This document shows, in pieces, positions 36,927 through 43,939 of a DNA stretch of 64,000 nucleotides. Both the position numbers and the translations under genes were made by a program. Source of the stretch: Ignavibacteria bacterium RIFOXYC2_FULL_35_21 (GTDB lineage: Bacteria > Bacteroidota > Ignavibacteria > Kapaibacteriales > UBA2268); assembly GCA_001804705.1 (NCBI GenBank), contig MHAY01000028.1, forward strand, positions 1 to 64,000. Reading direction: 5' to 3'. The notes beneath the pieces were generated by a model. It saw nothing but the letters and a program-made list of their open reading frames with translations. It had not been told where the DNA came from and did no database searches. Each line of letters begins with the position of its first letter. Within the stretch, counting starts at the first letter, position 1.

Positions 36927-37086
36927 TAAATAATCACCATAAATTTCTTATTCAAAATTATGAATATACGAGTTAATAAACAGAATTATTTCTAATTCGG
37001 ACAAATTTGTCCTTTTTTATGTTTTTGAAAAGAATTAATTTGCATTAAGTAAAAATTGAATGTTTAAAAAGTTAAATAGGATTAAA

Positions 37087-38028
37087 ATGAACAACAATTA
37101 TCTTGATGTTTTAACTAATGACCATCTTCTGATTGAAAAGGCTTTAATACTCGTAGAAAAGGAAGCCAAAAAAGAAGAGAAAATGAATGTCAGCATGGTA
37201 AAAACACTTATTGAATTTCTTGATGATTATGGCGACAAATGTCATAACATGAAAGAAGAGAAAATATATTTTCCATTACTTCTCGAAAGAGGGTTACCGC
37301 CACAGGGACCTATCGGCGTCATGCTCCAGGAGCACCAGATGGAGCGTGAATACCTCGATAAACTTAAAGAATCCATTAATGATATTGAGAAGTCAGGAAA
37401 ATTTATTACCGAATTTGCTAATCTGGTAGCCGGATATGAGGAGCTAACCAAGAGCCACATCTGGAAGGAAAATGATATTCTTTACCCGATGGGTAAACAT
37501 GTAATCACTCCTGAGGATGAAACATATCTTTACAATGAGTTCATCAAAATCGAGAGTGAAACTGCAGGTGCAGGTGCCTATGAAAGGTATGTCGTGCAAA
37601 TCAATACTTTTGAGAAACAGACAGGGCAGAGGATTGACCTTCTTTCAGCCATATCAACTGAGATAATGACAAATATGCTCGATTCAATTCCGGTTGAATT
37701 GTCGTTTGTTGATGCAGACAACAGAGTTAGATACTTTAATAAGATTTATGAAAAGAAAATATTCACACGTACACTATCAGTAATCGGCAGGACAGTACAG
37801 CAGTGCCATCCTCAGAAAAGTGTTCATCTTGTTAATCAAATCATCGAGGAAATGAAGACGGGTAAGCGTGACCAGGCTTCGTTCTGGATTAATTTCGAGA
37901 GCATGTTCGTTCACATTTCATATTATGCAGTACGTAATGAAAAAGGCGAATACCAGGGAGTTGTCGAAATGGTTCAAGATGTCAAGCCTTATCGAGACCT
38001 GGAAGGAGAGAAACGGCTGCTTGATTAA
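37087..38028 (+). CDS. Hemerythrin-like (HHE) domain protein with PAS domain
   Basis: About 313 residues from ATG at 37087, which has TAGGATTAAA upstream; a frame-open ATG at 37060 adds nine residues. Residues ~1-160 form a four-helix HHE cation-binding domain with ligand-type residues in NDHLLIEKALIL, CHNMKEEKIYFPLL, MLQEHQMEREYL and SHIWKENDILYPMG. Residues ~205-310 are a PAS domain (DSIPVELSFVDADNRVRYFN ... VEMVQDV). The pairing resembles DUF438/PAS proteins thought to sense oxygen, NO or iron. No output domain is present, so it probably signals through an unlinked partner. A REP follows. Confidence 0.88.
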   Translation: MNNNYLDVLTNDHLLIEKALILVEKEAKKEEKMNVSMVKTLIEFLDDYGDKCHNMKEEKIYFPLLLERGLPPQGPIGVMLQEHQMEREYLDKLKESINDIEKSGKFITEFANLVAGYEELTKSHIWKENDILYPMGKHVITPEDETYLYNEFIKIESETAGAGAYERYVVQINTFEKQTGQRIDLLSAISTEIMTNMLDSIPVELSFVDADNRVRYFNKIYEKKIFTRTLSVIGRTVQQCHPQKSVHLVNQIIEEMKTGKRDQASFWINFESMFVHISYYAVRNEKGEYQGVVEMVQDVKPYRDLEGEKRLLD

Positions 38029-38164: not shown

Positions 38165-38386
38165 ATGAAACCTCTATATACTGCAATACTCGAAAAAGAA
38201 AAAGATATGTATGTTGCAAATTGTCCTGAATTCGATATTGCAAGTCAGGGCTACACTATAGAAGAGGCTAAAGCTAATCTGCGTGAAGCTGTAGAACTTT
38301 TTCTTGAAACTGCAACTCAGGAAGAAATTAAAAGAAGGTATAAACCTGAAATTTTGATATCCAAATTCGAGGTTAGCTTTGGGTAA
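38165..38386 (+). CDS. hicB: HicB-like antitoxin
   Basis: 73 residues from ATG at 38165, preceded by GGAGATAAAG. The sequence YTAILEKEKDMYVANCPEFD followed by ASQGYTIEEAKANLREAVEL is the partial RNase H fold of HicB family proteins. The C terminus lacks a clear DNA-binding segment, so it belongs to the short HicB group. The toxin gene overlaps by eight bases. HicB neutralises HicA and usually autoregulates. Here antitoxin precedes toxin, the reverse of the commonest hicAB order. Confidence 0.88.
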   Translation: MKPLYTAILEKEKDMYVANCPEFDIASQGYTIEEAKANLREAVELFLETATQEEIKRRYKPEILISKFEVSFG

Positions 38387-38600
38387 GCTCAAAGTCCTCT
38401 CAGGTGAAGAAGTTTGTAAAATTCTTATGCTTAATGGTTTTGAACGGATTCGCCAAAGAGGCAGTCATATTATAATGCAGAAGAAATTTGAAAATACCAG
38501 TATAACAGTTCCTGTACCGAATCACAAAGAATTGATGAGCGGCACATTAAAATCAATCATAAAACAATCAGGCTTATCAAAAGAAATATTTGAGACATAA
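38379..38600 (+). CDS. hicA: HicA-like mRNA interferase toxin
   Basis: 73 residues, starting at TTG 38379 inside the end of hicB. The dsRNA-binding-like HicA fold is seen: KVLSGEEVCKILMLNGFERI, then the active-site stretch RQRGSHIIMQKK with the catalytic His, then VPVPNHKELMSGTLKSIIKQ and SGLSKEIF. It cleaves mRNA when free of HicB. Both key elements (GSH and NHKE) are present, so it looks active. Confidence 0.9.
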   Translation: MGKLKVLSGEEVCKILMLNGFERIRQRGSHIIMQKKFENTSITVPVPNHKELMSGTLKSIIKQSGLSKEIFET

Positions 38601-38627: not shown

Positions 38628-38918
38628 ATGAGCGAAAAGGAGAACATATCGAAAATATTTAAGTCTTATAAAGACTATCTTTGCAATAAGTACAGTCTTA
38701 AATATATCGGTTTGTTCGGTTCTGTATGCAGAGATGATTTTAATGATACAAGTGATATAGATGTACTTGTTGAGTTTGACAAGACAATTGGTGTTGAATT
38801 TATTGACCTTGCCGATGAACTGGAATCACTTTTGAAAAGAAAAGTTGACCTTGTTTCAAAAAATGGTATAAAGCCAAAGTATTTTGCTGAAATTGAAAAA
38901 GATTTAGTATATGTCTAA
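38628..38918 (+). CDS. MNT-type nucleotidyltransferase antitoxin
   Basis: A 96-residue minimal nucleotidyltransferase. The signature YIGLFGSVCRDDFNDTSDID then VLVEFD gives the GSxxRxxxxxxSDIDLxV pattern with two catalytic Asp. In MNT-HEPN (HepT) modules the MNT protein AMPylates and silences the HEPN RNase. It overlaps the HEPN gene by eight bases. A second, diverged pair lies at 40275-40941. Confidence 0.92.
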   Translation: MSEKENISKIFKSYKDYLCNKYSLKYIGLFGSVCRDDFNDTSDIDVLVEFDKTIGVEFIDLADELESLLKRKVDLVSKNGIKPKYFAEIEKDLVYV

Positions 38919-39252
38919 ACGCACTCCCAAACTTGTTCTCGAAGATATATTTGAAGCTGCTGAAAGCATCATTACCTATACAGAAAAAATTACTTATGAA
39001 GAATTTGTAAATGATAAAAAGACTATTGATGCTGTTATCAGAAATTTTGAAATTATTGGGGAAGCTGTCAAACTCTTACCACTAGTTTTGAAAAATAAAT
39101 ACACAGAAATAAATTGGCAAAGAATCAGAGGATTCCGTAACAGAATAATCCATGACTATTTCGGTGTTGATTTAAGCATAGTATGGACTATTATCGAAAC
39201 TCAAATAATGGATTTGAAAAATAATATTAATCAGATTCTAAGTGAGATATAA
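38911..39252 (+). CDS. HepT-like HEPN ribonuclease toxin (DUF86)
   Basis: 113 residues, all-helical. The RX4-6H motif is in FRNRIIHDYFGVDLSIVWTI, where R-N-R-I-I-H and the following Tyr (the AMPylation target in related HepT toxins) are intact. Partner of the MNT gene upstream. The antisense repeat R1 starts nine bases after the stop. Confidence 0.92.
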   Translation: MSKRTPKLVLEDIFEAAESIITYTEKITYEEFVNDKKTIDAVIRNFEIIGEAVKLLPLVLKNKYTEINWQRIRGFRNRIIHDYFGVDLSIVWTIIETQIMDLKNNINQILSEI

Positions 39253-39260
39253 TAAATTCT

Positions 39261-39283
39261 TCTCACTTCAGCACCACAAACAA
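39261..39283 (-). repeat. Cassette-boundary repeat R1 (degenerate)
   Basis: CACTTCAGCACCACAAAC on the plus strand. On the minus strand it reads LFVVLK and stop, a decayed form of the PFVVLR-stop tail found in R2-R4. Confidence 0.7.
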
Positions 39284-39300
39284 TTACTATAATTTGATAA

Positions 39301-39460
39301 AATCGAAAATTATCGAGGAAAGCGAATTGTTCGCATAAAAACAACAATACCTTGCAAGCTATTTACGAGGAACCATACGGAGCCCCACCTGCAAGGATTT
39401 ACTTGTTGATTGCAAATTTAGTAAACAAGACAAGAAAAAGCAAGAAATATTTTATAAAGT
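39301..39460 (+). pseudogene. Possible decayed cassette between R1 and R2
   Basis: A protein-like stretch without start codon: KIIEESELFA ends at 39338, and the +1 frame continues NNTLQAIYEEPYGAPPARIY and then LLIANLVNKTRKSKKYF into repeat R2. A frameshifted, truncated accessory gene is likely. The family was not recognised. Between 39253 and 39610 I see nothing else besides R1 and R2. Confidence 0.4.
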
Positions 39461-39470
39461 TTATCTTTTC

Positions 39471-39511
39471 CTTATCACCTCAGCACCACAAACGGTTTTG
39501 AATAGGTTTTG
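39471..39511 (-). repeat. Cassette-boundary repeat R2
   Basis: CTTATCACCTCAGCACCACA, then AACGGTTTTGAATAGGTTTT. The minus strand reads KTYSKPFVVLR then TGA, the usual end of a T9SS type A sorting domain. Confidence 0.85.
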
Positions 39512-39610
39512 CGGTTGTTTTGGAAAATTCAGTTTTTATAAACGGAATTAAAATATTAATTTTTCTATATCGTGATTTATAAAAATTAAATTAATTATAG
39601 GAACTAAATT

Positions 39611-39844
39611 ATGCACGCTACATATCAGATAAATGCAGATGAATTGAATTTCGATTTTTTTCAATCCGTCAAAGATACCTTTAAGGGAAAAGAAATTGAG
39701 ATTTCTATTATGGATTTTGATGAAACTGAGTATCTGCTTCGTTCGCCTAAAAATAAAGAAATTCTCTTGCAGCGTATAAAGGATGTGGAAGAAGGAAAGA
39801 ATCTGATTGAAGTTCCAATCGAAGAATTTGAAAAGGTATTATGA
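39611..39844 (+). CDS. Putative antitoxin of a YoeB-type pair
   Basis: 77 residues: MHATYQINADELNFDFFQSV, then KDTFKGKEIEISIMDFDETE, ending IEVPIEEFEKVL. The N-terminal strand and helix and the C-terminal acidic helix are typical of small antitoxins that wrap RelE/YoeB toxins. The classical YefM/Phd DNA-binding pattern is weak. The 4-base overlap (ATGA) with the toxin gene is the main support. Confidence 0.8.
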   Translation: MHATYQINADELNFDFFQSVKDTFKGKEIEISIMDFDETEYLLRSPKNKEILLQRIKDVEEGKNLIEVPIEEFEKVL

Positions 39845-40098
39845 GGAATATCTTATTTCAGAAGGATTCATTCGAGGAATTTCTTGAATGGGGAAATACA
39901 GACAAAAAGAAACAAAAGAAATTAGGAAAACTAATCGTAGAAACTATAAAAAATCCTTTTGAAGGATTAGGTAAACCAGAGCCATTGAAAGCAGATTTAA
40001 AAGGTTATTGGTCAAGACGTATAGATGAAGAACACCGATTGGTTTACAAAGTAACCGTTACATCAATTATTATAATTTCCTGCAAAGAGCATTATTAA
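39841..40098 (+). CDS. yoeB: Txe/YoeB-family ribosome-dependent mRNA interferase
   Basis: 85 residues of the YoeB fold: LFQKDSFEEFLEWGNTDKKK, IVETIKNPFEGLGKPEPLKA, then the signature GYWSRRIDEEHRLVYKV and the C-terminal SCKEHY. The Glu/Arg/His catalytic residues (E of DEEHR, R of HRLVY and C-terminal H) are present. It cleaves mRNA in the ribosomal A site. The repeat R3 follows 23 bases after the stop. Confidence 0.92.
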   Translation: MRNILFQKDSFEEFLEWGNTDKKKQKKLGKLIVETIKNPFEGLGKPEPLKADLKGYWSRRIDEEHRLVYKVTVTSIIIISCKEHY

Positions 40099-40120
40099 TC
40101 ATTAATTATACTAATTCCTT

Positions 40121-40157
40121 CTTACCTCAGCACCACAAACGGTTTTGAAATGGTTTT
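40121..40157 (-). repeat. Cassette-boundary repeat R3
   Basis: CTTACCTCAGCACCACAAAC then GGTTTTGAAATGGTTTT. The minus strand reads QSKTISKPFVVLR then TAA. Confidence 0.85.
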
Positions 40158-40274
40158 TGACTGTAGAAGTTGTTGAAAAGATAAAAAATCTGTTTACATT
40201 AATAGTTACTCAAACTGTTTTATATTAAAGAAAAATTATTTAAATTGATTTATCTTTCTAATCATTTATGAATA

Positions 40275-40580
40275 ATGAAAGTAAATAGTAAAAGAGAAAT
40301 ATTGGAATTAATAAGTATGAATAAGCAGAAATTCCATGAGTATGGTATTCAAAGAATTGGCTTATTCGGTTCTTTTGTACGCAATGAAAATAATGATAAA
40401 AGTGATATTGATTTTATAATTAAGTTTGACATTGGAAAAAAGAATTATGATAACTTTATACACCTGTCTTTCTTTCTCAGCGAACTTCTCGAACGAAAAA
40501 TCGAGCTTATAACAGAAGAATCTCTTAGCCCATATTTGAGAGAACACATTATGAGTGGAGTAGAGTATGTCTCCTTCTAA
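40275..40580 (+). CDS. MNT-type nucleotidyltransferase antitoxin, second copy
   Basis: 101 residues with RIGLFGSFVRNENNDKSDID then FIIKFD, the GSxxRxxxxxxSDIDF motif. Only modest identity to the MNT at 38628 (GLFGS, SDID), so it is not a recent duplicate. It overlaps its HEPN partner by 14 bases. Confidence 0.92.
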   Translation: MKVNSKREILELISMNKQKFHEYGIQRIGLFGSFVRNENNDKSDIDFIIKFDIGKKNYDNFIHLSFFLSELLERKIELITEESLSPYLREHIMSGVEYVSF

Positions 40581-40941
40581 TGTAGAAATCACAAAGCATA
40601 TCTTTGATGAAATCGAATTTATTTTAAAGCAAACATCAGGAATTGACTTTTTAACATTTTCCAAAGATGGTGTTTTACAAAGAGCAGTAATCAGGAGTTT
40701 TGAAATCATTGGTGAAGCATCCAAAAAATTATCTGTTGAGTTCAAATCAAAATACCAAGCAATTCCATGGAAAGAAATGGCAGGTTTCAGAGATGTACTG
40801 ATCCACGACTATTTTGGTGTTGATATTGAAATTGTTTGGGACATAGCCGAAAATCAGATTCCTAAAATTGAGCCTCAAATCAAACAATTAATTGATGCAG
40901 AGGAAGGAAGGTCCGGACAGCAGGAAAGAATAAATTATTAA
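40567..40941 (+). CDS. HepT-like HEPN ribonuclease toxin (DUF86), second copy
   Basis: 124 residues. The active site is FRDVLIHDYFGVDIEIVWDI (R-x4-H with Tyr after). Compared with the first HEPN, the motif region is nearly identical and the rest is diverged. A short tail EEGRSGQQERINY follows the fold. Repeat R4 starts 21 bases after the stop. Confidence 0.92.
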   Translation: MSPSNVEITKHIFDEIEFILKQTSGIDFLTFSKDGVLQRAVIRSFEIIGEASKKLSVEFKSKYQAIPWKEMAGFRDVLIHDYFGVDIEIVWDIAENQIPKIEPQIKQLIDAEEGRSGQQERINY

Positions 40942-40961
40942 TAATCTTCCTGTATCTATAT

Positions 40962-41002
40962 CTTATCACCTCAGCACCACAAACGGTTTTGAATAGGTTT
41001 TG
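40962..41002 (-). repeat. Cassette-boundary repeat R4
   Basis: CTTATCACCTCAGCACCACA then AACGGTTTTGAATAGGTTTT, identical to R2 over about 40 bases. The minus strand reads NDKTYSKPFVVLR then TGA. Confidence 0.85.
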
Positions 41003-41089
41003 TCATTGATATTGGCAAAAAGGAAATAGATAAAAATTGTTTACTAAAAAAAATATTAATAATTTGAGAAAATAAATTAATTTATACCT

Positions 41090-42184
41090 TTGAAATCAAA
41101 TTATAAGCAATTTTATTTATTAGTGAACAATATGAAGCAATTAATTGGTGTTAGAGGATTACATACATTATTAATAGAAGATCTTAAAAAAGATTTATTA
41201 TTTTTTGATAAATTATATATTATCGGGCTAAAGGATTTTAAATATGAAGTTCAAAAGGAATATCCTTATAAAAAAGTTAGAACTTATAAAGATTTGGTAA
41301 TATTTTCATTCTATCATAACCTTTATGAAAAAATTAAACACGGAGGGTTACCAGAATATTTAGAATATCTCAATAAGGAATTGGATTATTTAATTGAAAA
41401 TGATAAAATCATTATGGATGCTCCAACTTATTTAGAATTACAAGATGAAAAAATAGAAGAATGTAGACAAATAAGTCATGCATTGAGTGATAGTATCTTA
41501 CATTATTCAAAATCAAAAAGTGAATCACAGCAATTGTATTCAAATACTGAATTTAGTTCTGAGAAAATGCAAGATATAGCAAATTTCTTTGCAAGAAGAA
41601 AACAACCAATTGTTTTTGATAATGATTTAATTGTATATGCTCATAATTTAGCAATAAGAGAAGAGTCTATTTATTTTAATTATACAAATCATTTTAATTC
41701 TACTCCAATTATTCAAAAGTTCAATGAATTTGAAGGATATGAGACAAAAAAGCAAAAAATAATTAACATTTTTTATAACAAAATTCCTTTACCATCGGAT
41801 CAATGCCCTTGGGAAGAAATATTTAATTTTAAAAATGATGAAACTTCAATAGGTTTTTTAAAAGGTTTAAAACATTTTATTAATTGTCTCTCAAATGACA
41901 TAAGACCAATCAATGAAATAGAGGATGAATTAGAATGGAGATTATTTAAATATGAAGAAGCATTACGATTGCATAGACTAAAAACAGAAAACTCTACGCT
42001 AAAAATAATTTTAATGATTGGAGCAGAAATTTTAGAAAATTTACCAAGATTAAGATTTAGTAAAATCATTCAATCTTTTTATAAATTAAAAGAAAATAAA
42101 ATAGAACTTTTAGAAGCTGAATTGAAAACAGAGGGTTCAGAATTAGCATATATTTCAAGAGCCAAAAAAAGATTTATAAAATAA
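41090..42184 (+). CDS. Hypothetical protein of the accessory island
   Basis: A 364-residue soluble, mostly helical protein that I do not recognise; the start may instead be ATG at 41132 (MKQLIGVRGLHTLLIEDLKK). Features seen: an N-terminal alpha/beta segment (DLLFFDKLYIIGLKDF), acidic LDYLIENDKIIMDAPTYLEL, the loop PLPSDQCPWEEIFNFKND, and a basic C terminus (ISRAKKRFIK). Codon use is markedly more AT-rich than in the housekeeping genes, which fits recent acquisition. It follows R4 as the last item of the repeat-bounded array and converges with the 266-residue gene. A role in defence is possible but unsupported. Confidence 0.65.
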   Translation: MKSNYKQFYLLVNNMKQLIGVRGLHTLLIEDLKKDLLFFDKLYIIGLKDFKYEVQKEYPYKKVRTYKDLVIFSFYHNLYEKIKHGGLPEYLEYLNKELDYLIENDKIIMDAPTYLELQDEKIEECRQISHALSDSILHYSKSKSESQQLYSNTEFSSEKMQDIANFFARRKQPIVFDNDLIVYAHNLAIREESIYFNYTNHFNSTPIIQKFNEFEGYETKKQKIINIFYNKIPLPSDQCPWEEIFNFKNDETSIGFLKGLKHFINCLSNDIRPINEIEDELEWRLFKYEEALRLHRLKTENSTLKIILMIGAEILENLPRLRFSKIIQSFYKLKENKIELLEAELKTEGSELAYISRAKKRFIK

Positions 42185-42306
42185 AATGATATTTTAAAAT
42201 ATATGAAAATCAATTTTAGAATAAAATTAAGAAAAAAATTTAATCATCCCAGTAATTTATTGAAAAATAATAAATCCTTATATTATTTTTTGGACTGTTA
42301 ATATTA

Positions 42307-43095
42307 TTAATAAGAATTAGTCATACGAAGTAATCTATCTTTGATTTCATTTGGGAAAAATTTTTCAATAAATTGACTTAAAATTTCAGGATCATATCCT
42401 AATTCTTTTGCTTCTAAAATTATATCTCCATCAATATACTTTTTATCTTTATCTTTAAACCATAACTGTATTAATCCAATACCATGTATTTGAGCTTCTT
42501 GCTCTATCCTTTGATAATCAATATTATCATAAAAATCATCATCTTCAGGCCATTCGAAACAATAATAAGTATATTTACCATATTTTGAATGAGATATTGC
42601 CTCAAAAATTCCATTCAATTCAAAAGCTGATTTTTTTCGTTTTACTTCAAAAGATATAGTATTAAAGTTTAATTCTGGTGTATAACGGTATTTAACAAAT
42701 GAAATACTTATCAAATCTGGTATGTCCCATCTTCTTTTTTCTTTTGGTCTTTTATCAGCAGATATAATCACATCAAAAAGATCTCTTTCTTTAACTAAAT
42801 CACTAGGTCTGAACTCTTCTAAAATCCAATTTTTAAATGGTTCATATAATTCTTTTTCAGATAAAGATATTATTATACTTTTAGTTTTTTTTATCCCTTT
42901 TTTATGAATTTTTCCAAATGGTCCGCCAAATGATGGTTTTATCTCAACTAATCCAGATTCTCTGAGTTCAAACTTTGCTTTTTTAACTCTTTCAAAATCC
43001 CAACCAGTTATATTCATTGCCGTCCTATTTAGTATTCTACCTGTTTCAGGTAATAATTCTAATAGTTTTTGTGCATCTTCTGATAGATTACTCAT
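42307..43095 (-). CDS. Winged-helix plus PD-(D/E)XK-like protein
   Basis: About 262 residues from ATG at 43095 (MSNLSEDAQKLLELLP); ATG at 43107 adds four. Residues ~1-70 look like a winged helix (LPETGRILNRTAMNITG, then RELRESGLVEIKPS-like wing). Residues ~110-220 contain RRWDIPDLISISFVKYRY, then TISFEVKRKKSAFELNG, giving a D ... E-x-K arrangement as in PD-(D/E)XK nuclease-like folds, then FEAISHSKYGKYTYYCFEW. It may be a restriction-like or regulatory DNA-binding protein. AT-rich like its convergent neighbour. The stop lies 123 bases from the neighbour's stop, with no clear terminator. Confidence 0.6.
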   Translation of the reverse strand: MSNLSEDAQKLLELLPETGRILNRTAMNITGWDFERVKKAKFELRESGLVEIKPSFGGPFGKIHKKGIKKTKSIIISLSEKELYEPFKNWILEEFRPSDLVKERDLFDVIISADKRPKEKRRWDIPDLISISFVKYRYTPELNFNTISFEVKRKKSAFELNGIFEAISHSKYGKYTYYCFEWPEDDDFYDNIDYQRIEQEAQIHGIGLIQLWFKDKDKKYIDGDIILEAKELGYDPEILSQFIEKFFPNEIKDRLLRMTNSY

Positions 43096-43156
43096 AATGA
43101 ATTCCATTCTGAATTAATTTAGAAATTTATTTTATGTTTTTACTATAAGTTTTCCC

Positions 43157-43939
43157 TCACTTCCCTTTAAAATCCGCCTTCCTTTTCTCTAAGAACGCAG
43201 ACGTTCCTTCCTTGAAGTCGGCAGTGCCGCAGACTTCACCGAATTTGCGGGATTCGAATGCCAATCCTTCAAGTGGTGATAGCTCTTCGGCGGCGTTGAT
43301 ACATTCTACTGCGGCGGATACAGCAAGCGGACCTTTTGTGAGAATCAGCTTCATAAATTCTTCTGTTTTGGGGAGCAGTTCTTCAGGTTTATATACAGCA
43401 TTGACGAGACCTATTTTTTCTGCTTGCTCTGCATTGAGCATGTTAGCTGATAATATCAATTCCATTGCTTTTGCCTTTCCCACAATACGTGTTAGTCTCT
43501 GTGTACCGCCATATCCGGGAATGATGCCGAGATTAACTTCCGGCTGTCCCATCTTCGCATTTTCGGAAGCGAATCTCATCTGGCAGGCAAGTGTCAGCTC
43601 ACAGCCGCCGCCGAGTGCGAAACCGTTAATTGCGGCAATGGTGGGTATTCTCAATTCTGCAAGTCGTTTCATAACCTTAGAACCGTACTCTGAAAATAAT
43701 TTGCCTGAGCGGTCATCCGACTCATGCAGTTCTTTAATATCGGCACCTGCGGCAAATGCTTTCTCACCCGAACCTGTTAGGATTAAACCATGTACATCAC
43801 GGTCTAATTCTATTTTTTGGAATGCATCGTCTAAGTCGTCGAACATTTGTTTGTTTAGTGCATTCAGCTTGTCAGGGCGATTGAGTGTGATTACAACATA
43901 GTTCTCTTTTTTTTCAAAAATGATGGTTTGGTAACTCAT
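43157..43939 (-). CDS. Enoyl-CoA hydratase/isomerase (crotonase)
   Basis: 260 residues. The crotonase signature is complete: LNRPDKLNALNKQMFDDLDD, oxyanion hole AFAAGADIKELHES and AINGFALGGGCELTLACQMR, catalytic Glu region MGQPEVNLGIIPGYGGTQRL, and the second Glu in that loop. It hydrates trans-2-enoyl-CoA in fatty-acid or amino-acid degradation. No other beta-oxidation genes lie nearby. Its codon use is that of the housekeeping genes, so it marks the right-hand border of the accessory island. Confidence 0.92.
   Translation of the reverse strand: MSYQTIIFEKKENYVVITLNRPDKLNALNKQMFDDLDDAFQKIELDRDVHGLILTGSGEKAFAAGADIKELHESDDRSGKLFSEYGSKVMKRLAELRIPTIAAINGFALGGGCELTLACQMRFASENAKMGQPEVNLGIIPGYGGTQRLTRIVGKAKAMELILSANMLNAEQAEKIGLVNAVYKPEELLPKTEEFMKLILTKGPLAVSAAVECINAAEELSPLEGLAFESRKFGEVCGTADFKEGTSAFLEKRKADFKGK

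Follow-up and report, generated by a model that had tools for sequence, protein, structure and literature searches.

Putative T9SS sorting-tail relics between toxin-antitoxin pairs at a species-variable site in an Ignavibacteria genome

The window analysed here comprises 64,000 nucleotides of contig MHAY01000028.1 from Ignavibacteria bacterium RIFOXYC2_FULL_35_21 (genome G000 below). Between a hemerythrin/PAS-like gene and an enoyl-CoA hydratase (ECH) gene it contains an array of predicted toxin-antitoxin (TA) pairs with four short repeats, R1 to R4, among them. The site was compared with its counterparts in three congeneric genomes (G001, G002 and G003) and in a genome of a sister genus (G015). 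The features of the window are as follows.

37060-38028, plus strand: hemerythrin/PAS-like gene, the fixed left flank, its orthologs occupying the equivalent position in G001, G002 and G003
38174-38600, plus strand: HicB-like/HicA pair, the first cassette (HicA, E 3e-19, Pfam)
38628-39252, plus strand: MNT-HEPN (HepT) pair 1 (Pfam)
39259-39322, minus strand: R1, T9SS tail relic that stops within the motif, where it is joined to the DUF3800 remnant
39279-39338, plus strand: DUF3800 3' remnant, NNYYNLIKSKIIEESELFA-stop, its first part overlapping the stretch aligned as R1
39350-39396, no strand assigned: dispersed hairpin element with a covarying stem, found 3' of DUF3800 genes
39471-39534, minus strand: R2, T9SS tail relic ending KTYSKPFVVLR-stop
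39611-40098, plus strand: YefM-like/YoeB pair (YoeB, 39841-40098, E 1.9e-31; YefM, weak match)
40118-40181, minus strand: R3, T9SS tail relic
40275-40941, plus strand: MNT-HEPN (HepT) pair 2 (Pfam)
40962-41025, minus strand: R4, T9SS tail relic, YFLFANINDKTYSKPFVVLR-stop
41132-42184, plus strand: inserted gene, 350 aa, no Pfam, PADLOC or NCBIfam match
42307-43107, minus strand: inserted gene, 266 aa, no Pfam or NCBIfam match
43157-43939, minus strand: ECH gene, the fixed right flank

The toxins of the array (two HepT-like proteins, YoeB and HicA) score over their curated cut-offs, and the antitoxin genes overlap or adjoin the toxin genes, the pairs themselves being predicted from sequence. For the first cassette, HicA (38379-38600) exceeds the Pfam cut-off and the UPF0150 (HicB-like) match at 38174 is under its own; the hemerythrin/PAS-like gene has weak matches to FeS-repair/PAS profiles. 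The two MNT-HEPN pairs are not a recent tandem duplication, as their MNT proteins are 36% and their HEPN proteins 43% identical. No prophage or satellite genes were recognised between the two flanks. It is important to point out that the HicBA pair, which is part of the same variable site, and the two inserted genes at 41132-43107, between R4 and ECH, were absent from the original prediction. A relative of the 350-residue gene adjoins an MNT-HEPN pair in G001 (contig C139), and the gene may thus be TA- or defence-linked.

We now turn to the repeats. They share a 13-nt core, CAGCACCACAAAC, with exact copies at 39269, 39481, 40128 and 40972. The mean in shuffled sequence was 0.05 copies and no shuffle reached four, so the four repeats originally placed at 39261, 39471, 40121 and 40962 are real. 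Over 50 nt, R4 is 94%, R3 82% and R1 60% identical to R2. R2 and R4 have an identical block of 36-41 nt (the 41-nt block reads CAAAACCTATTCAAAACCGTTTGTGGTGCTGAGGTGATAAG on the minus strand), and as near-identical repeats they are long enough for homologous exchange; identical repeats of 41 nt also make a mis-assembly within the array possible, the orthologous sites in other species supporting the overall picture. R1, R3 and R4 begin shortly 3' of the stops of HEPN1, YoeB and HEPN2, respectively, and on this point Pfam and the coordinates agree with the earlier description.

Read on the minus strand, R2, R3 and R4 end in SKPFVVLR-stop, preceded by residues that are not the same in the three copies, and R1 is broken off within the motif. 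Eight tails with FVVLR or FVVMR at their end, chosen in this genome and in related ones and not including the R copies, were used to build a tail HMM. It gives 24.9 bits for R4, 21.2 for R2, 16.0 for the R copy of G001 and 14.1 for R3, compared with 7.4 bits for the best non-T9SS piece of the control (1963 pieces from 36.9 kb of control window sequence, one genuine T9SS gene being left out), although the model leans towards R because its training tails were picked for their resemblance to it. With a general tail HMM, R4 is the top match in the island at 13.7 bits (control pieces, 9.1), and the weaker copies are separated less well. The standard Pfam and NCBIfam models gave no report on such short pieces. 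The R matches start at profile position 58-68 of 80 and always end at the last position, which is the stop. They thus carry the C-terminal motif of a T9SS type A domain ending at a stop codon, but a complete domain has about 75 residues and sits on a secreted protein, and of this they cover only the last ~13-23 positions.

The 3' ends of intact T9SS proteins in G015 carry the R DNA with 2 mismatches in 22 nt. Taken together with the HMM scores, this argues that R is what is left, some 60 nt, of a truncated T9SS type A tail, and the HMM and the KPFVVLR-stop reading concur with the original assignment of the repeats, R1 in decayed form, to such a tail end.

Contigs C331 and C451 of G015 hold T9SS paralogs in tandem, which have TTDGG.TW-type repeats and near-identical tails about 1.56 kb apart, and this is likely to be the source family of R. 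Orphan T9SS tails that have no protein body were also seen, one at L156:2552-2740 (G001:C58), with no TA genes adjoining, and one at about 1786-1840 of L157 (G003:C24:43785-43839); gene-end debris of this kind occurs beyond the TA site too.

R4 is 83% identical to the R copy of G002 and 82% to that of G001, and is probably their ortholog. Over a 36-nt core, R2 and R4 are the same, whereas R4 differs from the G001 and G002 copies at 4-5 of the 36 positions. This points to a recent duplication or exchange of R in the lineage of the window, and is the sole direct hint of R-mediated recombination. It also bears on the option that R1-R4 are the ends of separate T9SS genes that once stood in tandem, their bodies lost and TA pairs later filling the gaps, which we regard as unlikely. 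The tandem paralogs of G015, with the same tail, speak for that option, as does the variation upstream of SKPFVVLR in R2-R4, which is of the sort found among paralogous tails. However, all relics are truncated near the same place in the profile, where varied lengths might have been seen, and R2 matches R4 at each of 41 nt while R4 is unlike its orthologs. The similar starting place suggests, instead, copies of one truncated relic.

The gap closed by R2 does hold a decayed gene, as had been noted: the C-terminal residues of a DUF3800 protein, assigned by aligning them by eye to Pfam-identified DUF3800 proteins in L285 and L288, and then the hairpin element. The hairpin has six copies (window 39335-39450; L284:1178-1300, L285:1070-1192, L287:1062-1183, L288:1045-1168 and L286:758-870), with the stem CCTTGCA..TGCAAGG or CCTTATA..TATAAGG, a conserved GCTATTTACGAG and compensatory changes at four pairs. 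Three of the six lie directly 3' of DUF3800 genes elsewhere, in at least three genomes. Named DUF3800-associated RNA motifs exist in the literature; an Rfam search of the hairpin gave no credible match, and it is possibly an undescribed RNA or DNA element associated with DUF3800.

The hemerythrin/PAS and ECH flanks are syntenic in the three congeners, whose same-site ECH orthologs are 98, 96 and 93% identical. Between them, G001 has a YefM antitoxin without YoeB, followed by R; G002 has a RelB/RelE-type pair, followed by R; and G003 has HicBA, followed by two relics (Ra and Rb). The names YefM and RelBE are here based on translations and on homology to the window genes and not on profile searches. 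Different TA content among related genomes, anticipated in the original prediction, is thus what we find. In G015, HicAB and a RelBE-type pair come next after ECH, with a degenerate R between them that 2 of 2000 shuffles align equally well. An R relic is accordingly present at this site in four of four congeners, the window genome included, and in degenerate form in the sister genus, while the more distant family members examined showed no recognisable TA pair immediately 3' of ECH. In the single-cassette species, the TA genes stand directly behind the left flank and there is no R on the left side; HicBA is followed by R in G003, but in the window by MNT-HEPN with no R between. The locus is a natural series of four species and a sister genus in which the gain and loss at a TA hotspot can be followed over time.

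Divergence in the shared TA genes is similar to that in the flanking genes. At the nucleotide level, the YefM-like antitoxins of G000 and G001 are 85.7% identical (ECH, 86.7%), the HicBA pairs of G000 and G003 85.2% (ECH, 83.9%), and the RelBE pairs of G002 and G015 79.0% (ECH, 82.4%). The nearest relative of MNT-HEPN pair 1, at 80%, lies at an unrelated site in G003. Such divergence is better explained by an old array from which each species lost its own members than by fresh insertion. Either an ancestral array with differing losses or an old same-site exchange between lineages would fit these data, which consist of one MAG per species. The proposal that cassettes move in and out between the tails is, on the other hand, disfavoured by TA genes that have diverged as much as the genes around them.

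We have also considered how widespread R is. In 54 family genomes, strong matches to an R model are confined to this site of the four congeners and to the T9SS tails of G015; one weaker match, from G001, is an orphan tail at another place, with no TA genes adjoining. The genome of the window has R only as R1-R4, despite at least 150 T9SS tails, which does not support the original interpretation. DNA nearly the same as R does end intact T9SS genes, namely in G015, a point that the original prediction had asked to be checked; R borders TA genes at this locus only. The exact 22-nt core of R had no match in the genome and viral contig collections.

The same picture is obtained from the side of the TA genes. 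Among the 60 HEPN/HicA loci listed for five genomes, R is found at four, all of this site (three window matches and one from G003); the G015 site, as a fifth locus, has the degenerate R only, and R is absent from the other 55 matches listed, which lie at other sites. Elsewhere, the relatives nearest to the window pairs are in unrelated contexts with no R beside them. R is therefore a feature of the locus and not of the TA cassette. A general link between T9SS and TA genes was rejected, as no confident T9SS tail in convergent orientation follows the TA gene at any of the 60 listed loci. Of six further HEPN loci, two have such a tail downstream (G000:C77 and G003:C82), with no enrichment apparent by inspection.

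It is highly improbable that R is retained for the function of the TA operons, for example in transcription end or 3' end protection. Its position shortly after three TA operon stops, and after TA genes or pairs in the other species, would agree with such a role, but its RNA folds are not clearly above those of shuffles (z -0.9 and -1.7) and at other sites of these genomes the TA operons are without R. No terminator-like site was found in the region.

Another option considered was that R is a true recombination site, TA-R cassettes being inserted and excised by a recombinase in integron fashion. The repeated TA-R layout, and four species with different cassettes each followed by R, are in its favor. 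However, a search with TIGR02249 gave no integron integrase over the cut-off in G000-G003 and G015, which are incomplete MAGs; tyrosine-recombinase matches under the cut-off occur in these genomes with the same background in all control genomes. The attC boxes RYYYAAC and GTTRRRY are absent from R1-R4 and their flanks on both strands, and the folds of R2-R4 on both strands lie at z -0.63 to 0.31 relative to shuffles; R was rejected as attC on these two grounds. In addition, TA genes as old as the flanks, and closest TA relatives that lack R, are not what this option calls for, and we consider it very unlikely. Cassette content does vary at one site between relatives, as in integrons, but cassettes carrying the site elsewhere were found neither among the 55 TA matches listed nor among the nearest relatives. 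The label "integron-like without an integrase or attC" thus fits as a description of the layout and of nothing beyond it.

The reading that we prefer, with a probability of roughly 55%, is an old, species-variable TA hotspot, the 3' edge of which would be a truncated and duplicated relic of a T9SS tail that provides short homology for recombination. An ancestral array would have held several TA pairs, different members of which were lost in different lineages. The tail relic would have become duplicated inside the array, its copies acting as short homology only, with which ordinary recombination could duplicate, homogenise or delete the intervening DNA. We do not invoke a dedicated recombinase, nor do we take R to be a functional part of the TA genes. 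The repeats may have caused the differences between the species. It is important to note that the R-less left edges and the window HicBA without R fit poorly with pure R-by-R deletion; with no R on the left edge of the single-cassette sites, the losses cannot all be of this kind.

It is doubtful that leftover T9SS gene ends serve as ready homology by which TA arrays gain, lose and exchange members with no recombinase of their own. If R-mediated exchange does take place, it would offer a simple route from gene debris to a TA array that looks like an integron, and repeated TA layouts should then not be called integron-like without tests for the enzyme and the site. For this Kapabacteria-like uncultured group, the R scraps are real, and nothing shows a general machine for moving TA genes. 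The wider claim that TA cassettes are generally bordered by T9SS tails is not supported, as R stands beside TA genes at this locus only among the 54 family genomes. In the open-access literature, we came across no account of a connection between T9SS tails and TA cassettes.

Finally, the locus can be compared with known systems. With the T9SS type A sorting domain (Por_Secre_tail, PF18962/TIGR04183), R has in common the last ~13-23 residues, ending at the stop, and the DNA of intact sister-genus tails. T9SS type A proteins have a domain of about 75 residues, whereas R has neither signal peptide nor protein body and is frameshifted or broken in some species, as expected of a relic and not of a gene. 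Chromosomal integron cassette arrays and CALINs (attC clusters without an integrase) likewise consist of small cassettes, often TA, with a repeated 3' sequence between them and a content that differs between relatives. Unlike in those, no IntI, attC motif or hairpin was found here, the repeats are confined to a single locus and come from the end of a coding gene, and the shared cassettes are as old as the flanks. A third comparison is with the defence and TA hotspots, variable loci between conserved genes, such as those of P2 and P4 phages, where TA and defence content varies between fixed flanks (PMC9122126). The present locus has the same fixed flanks and variable content, but it is a chromosomal site, and short direct repeats derived from a gene relic lie between its modules.
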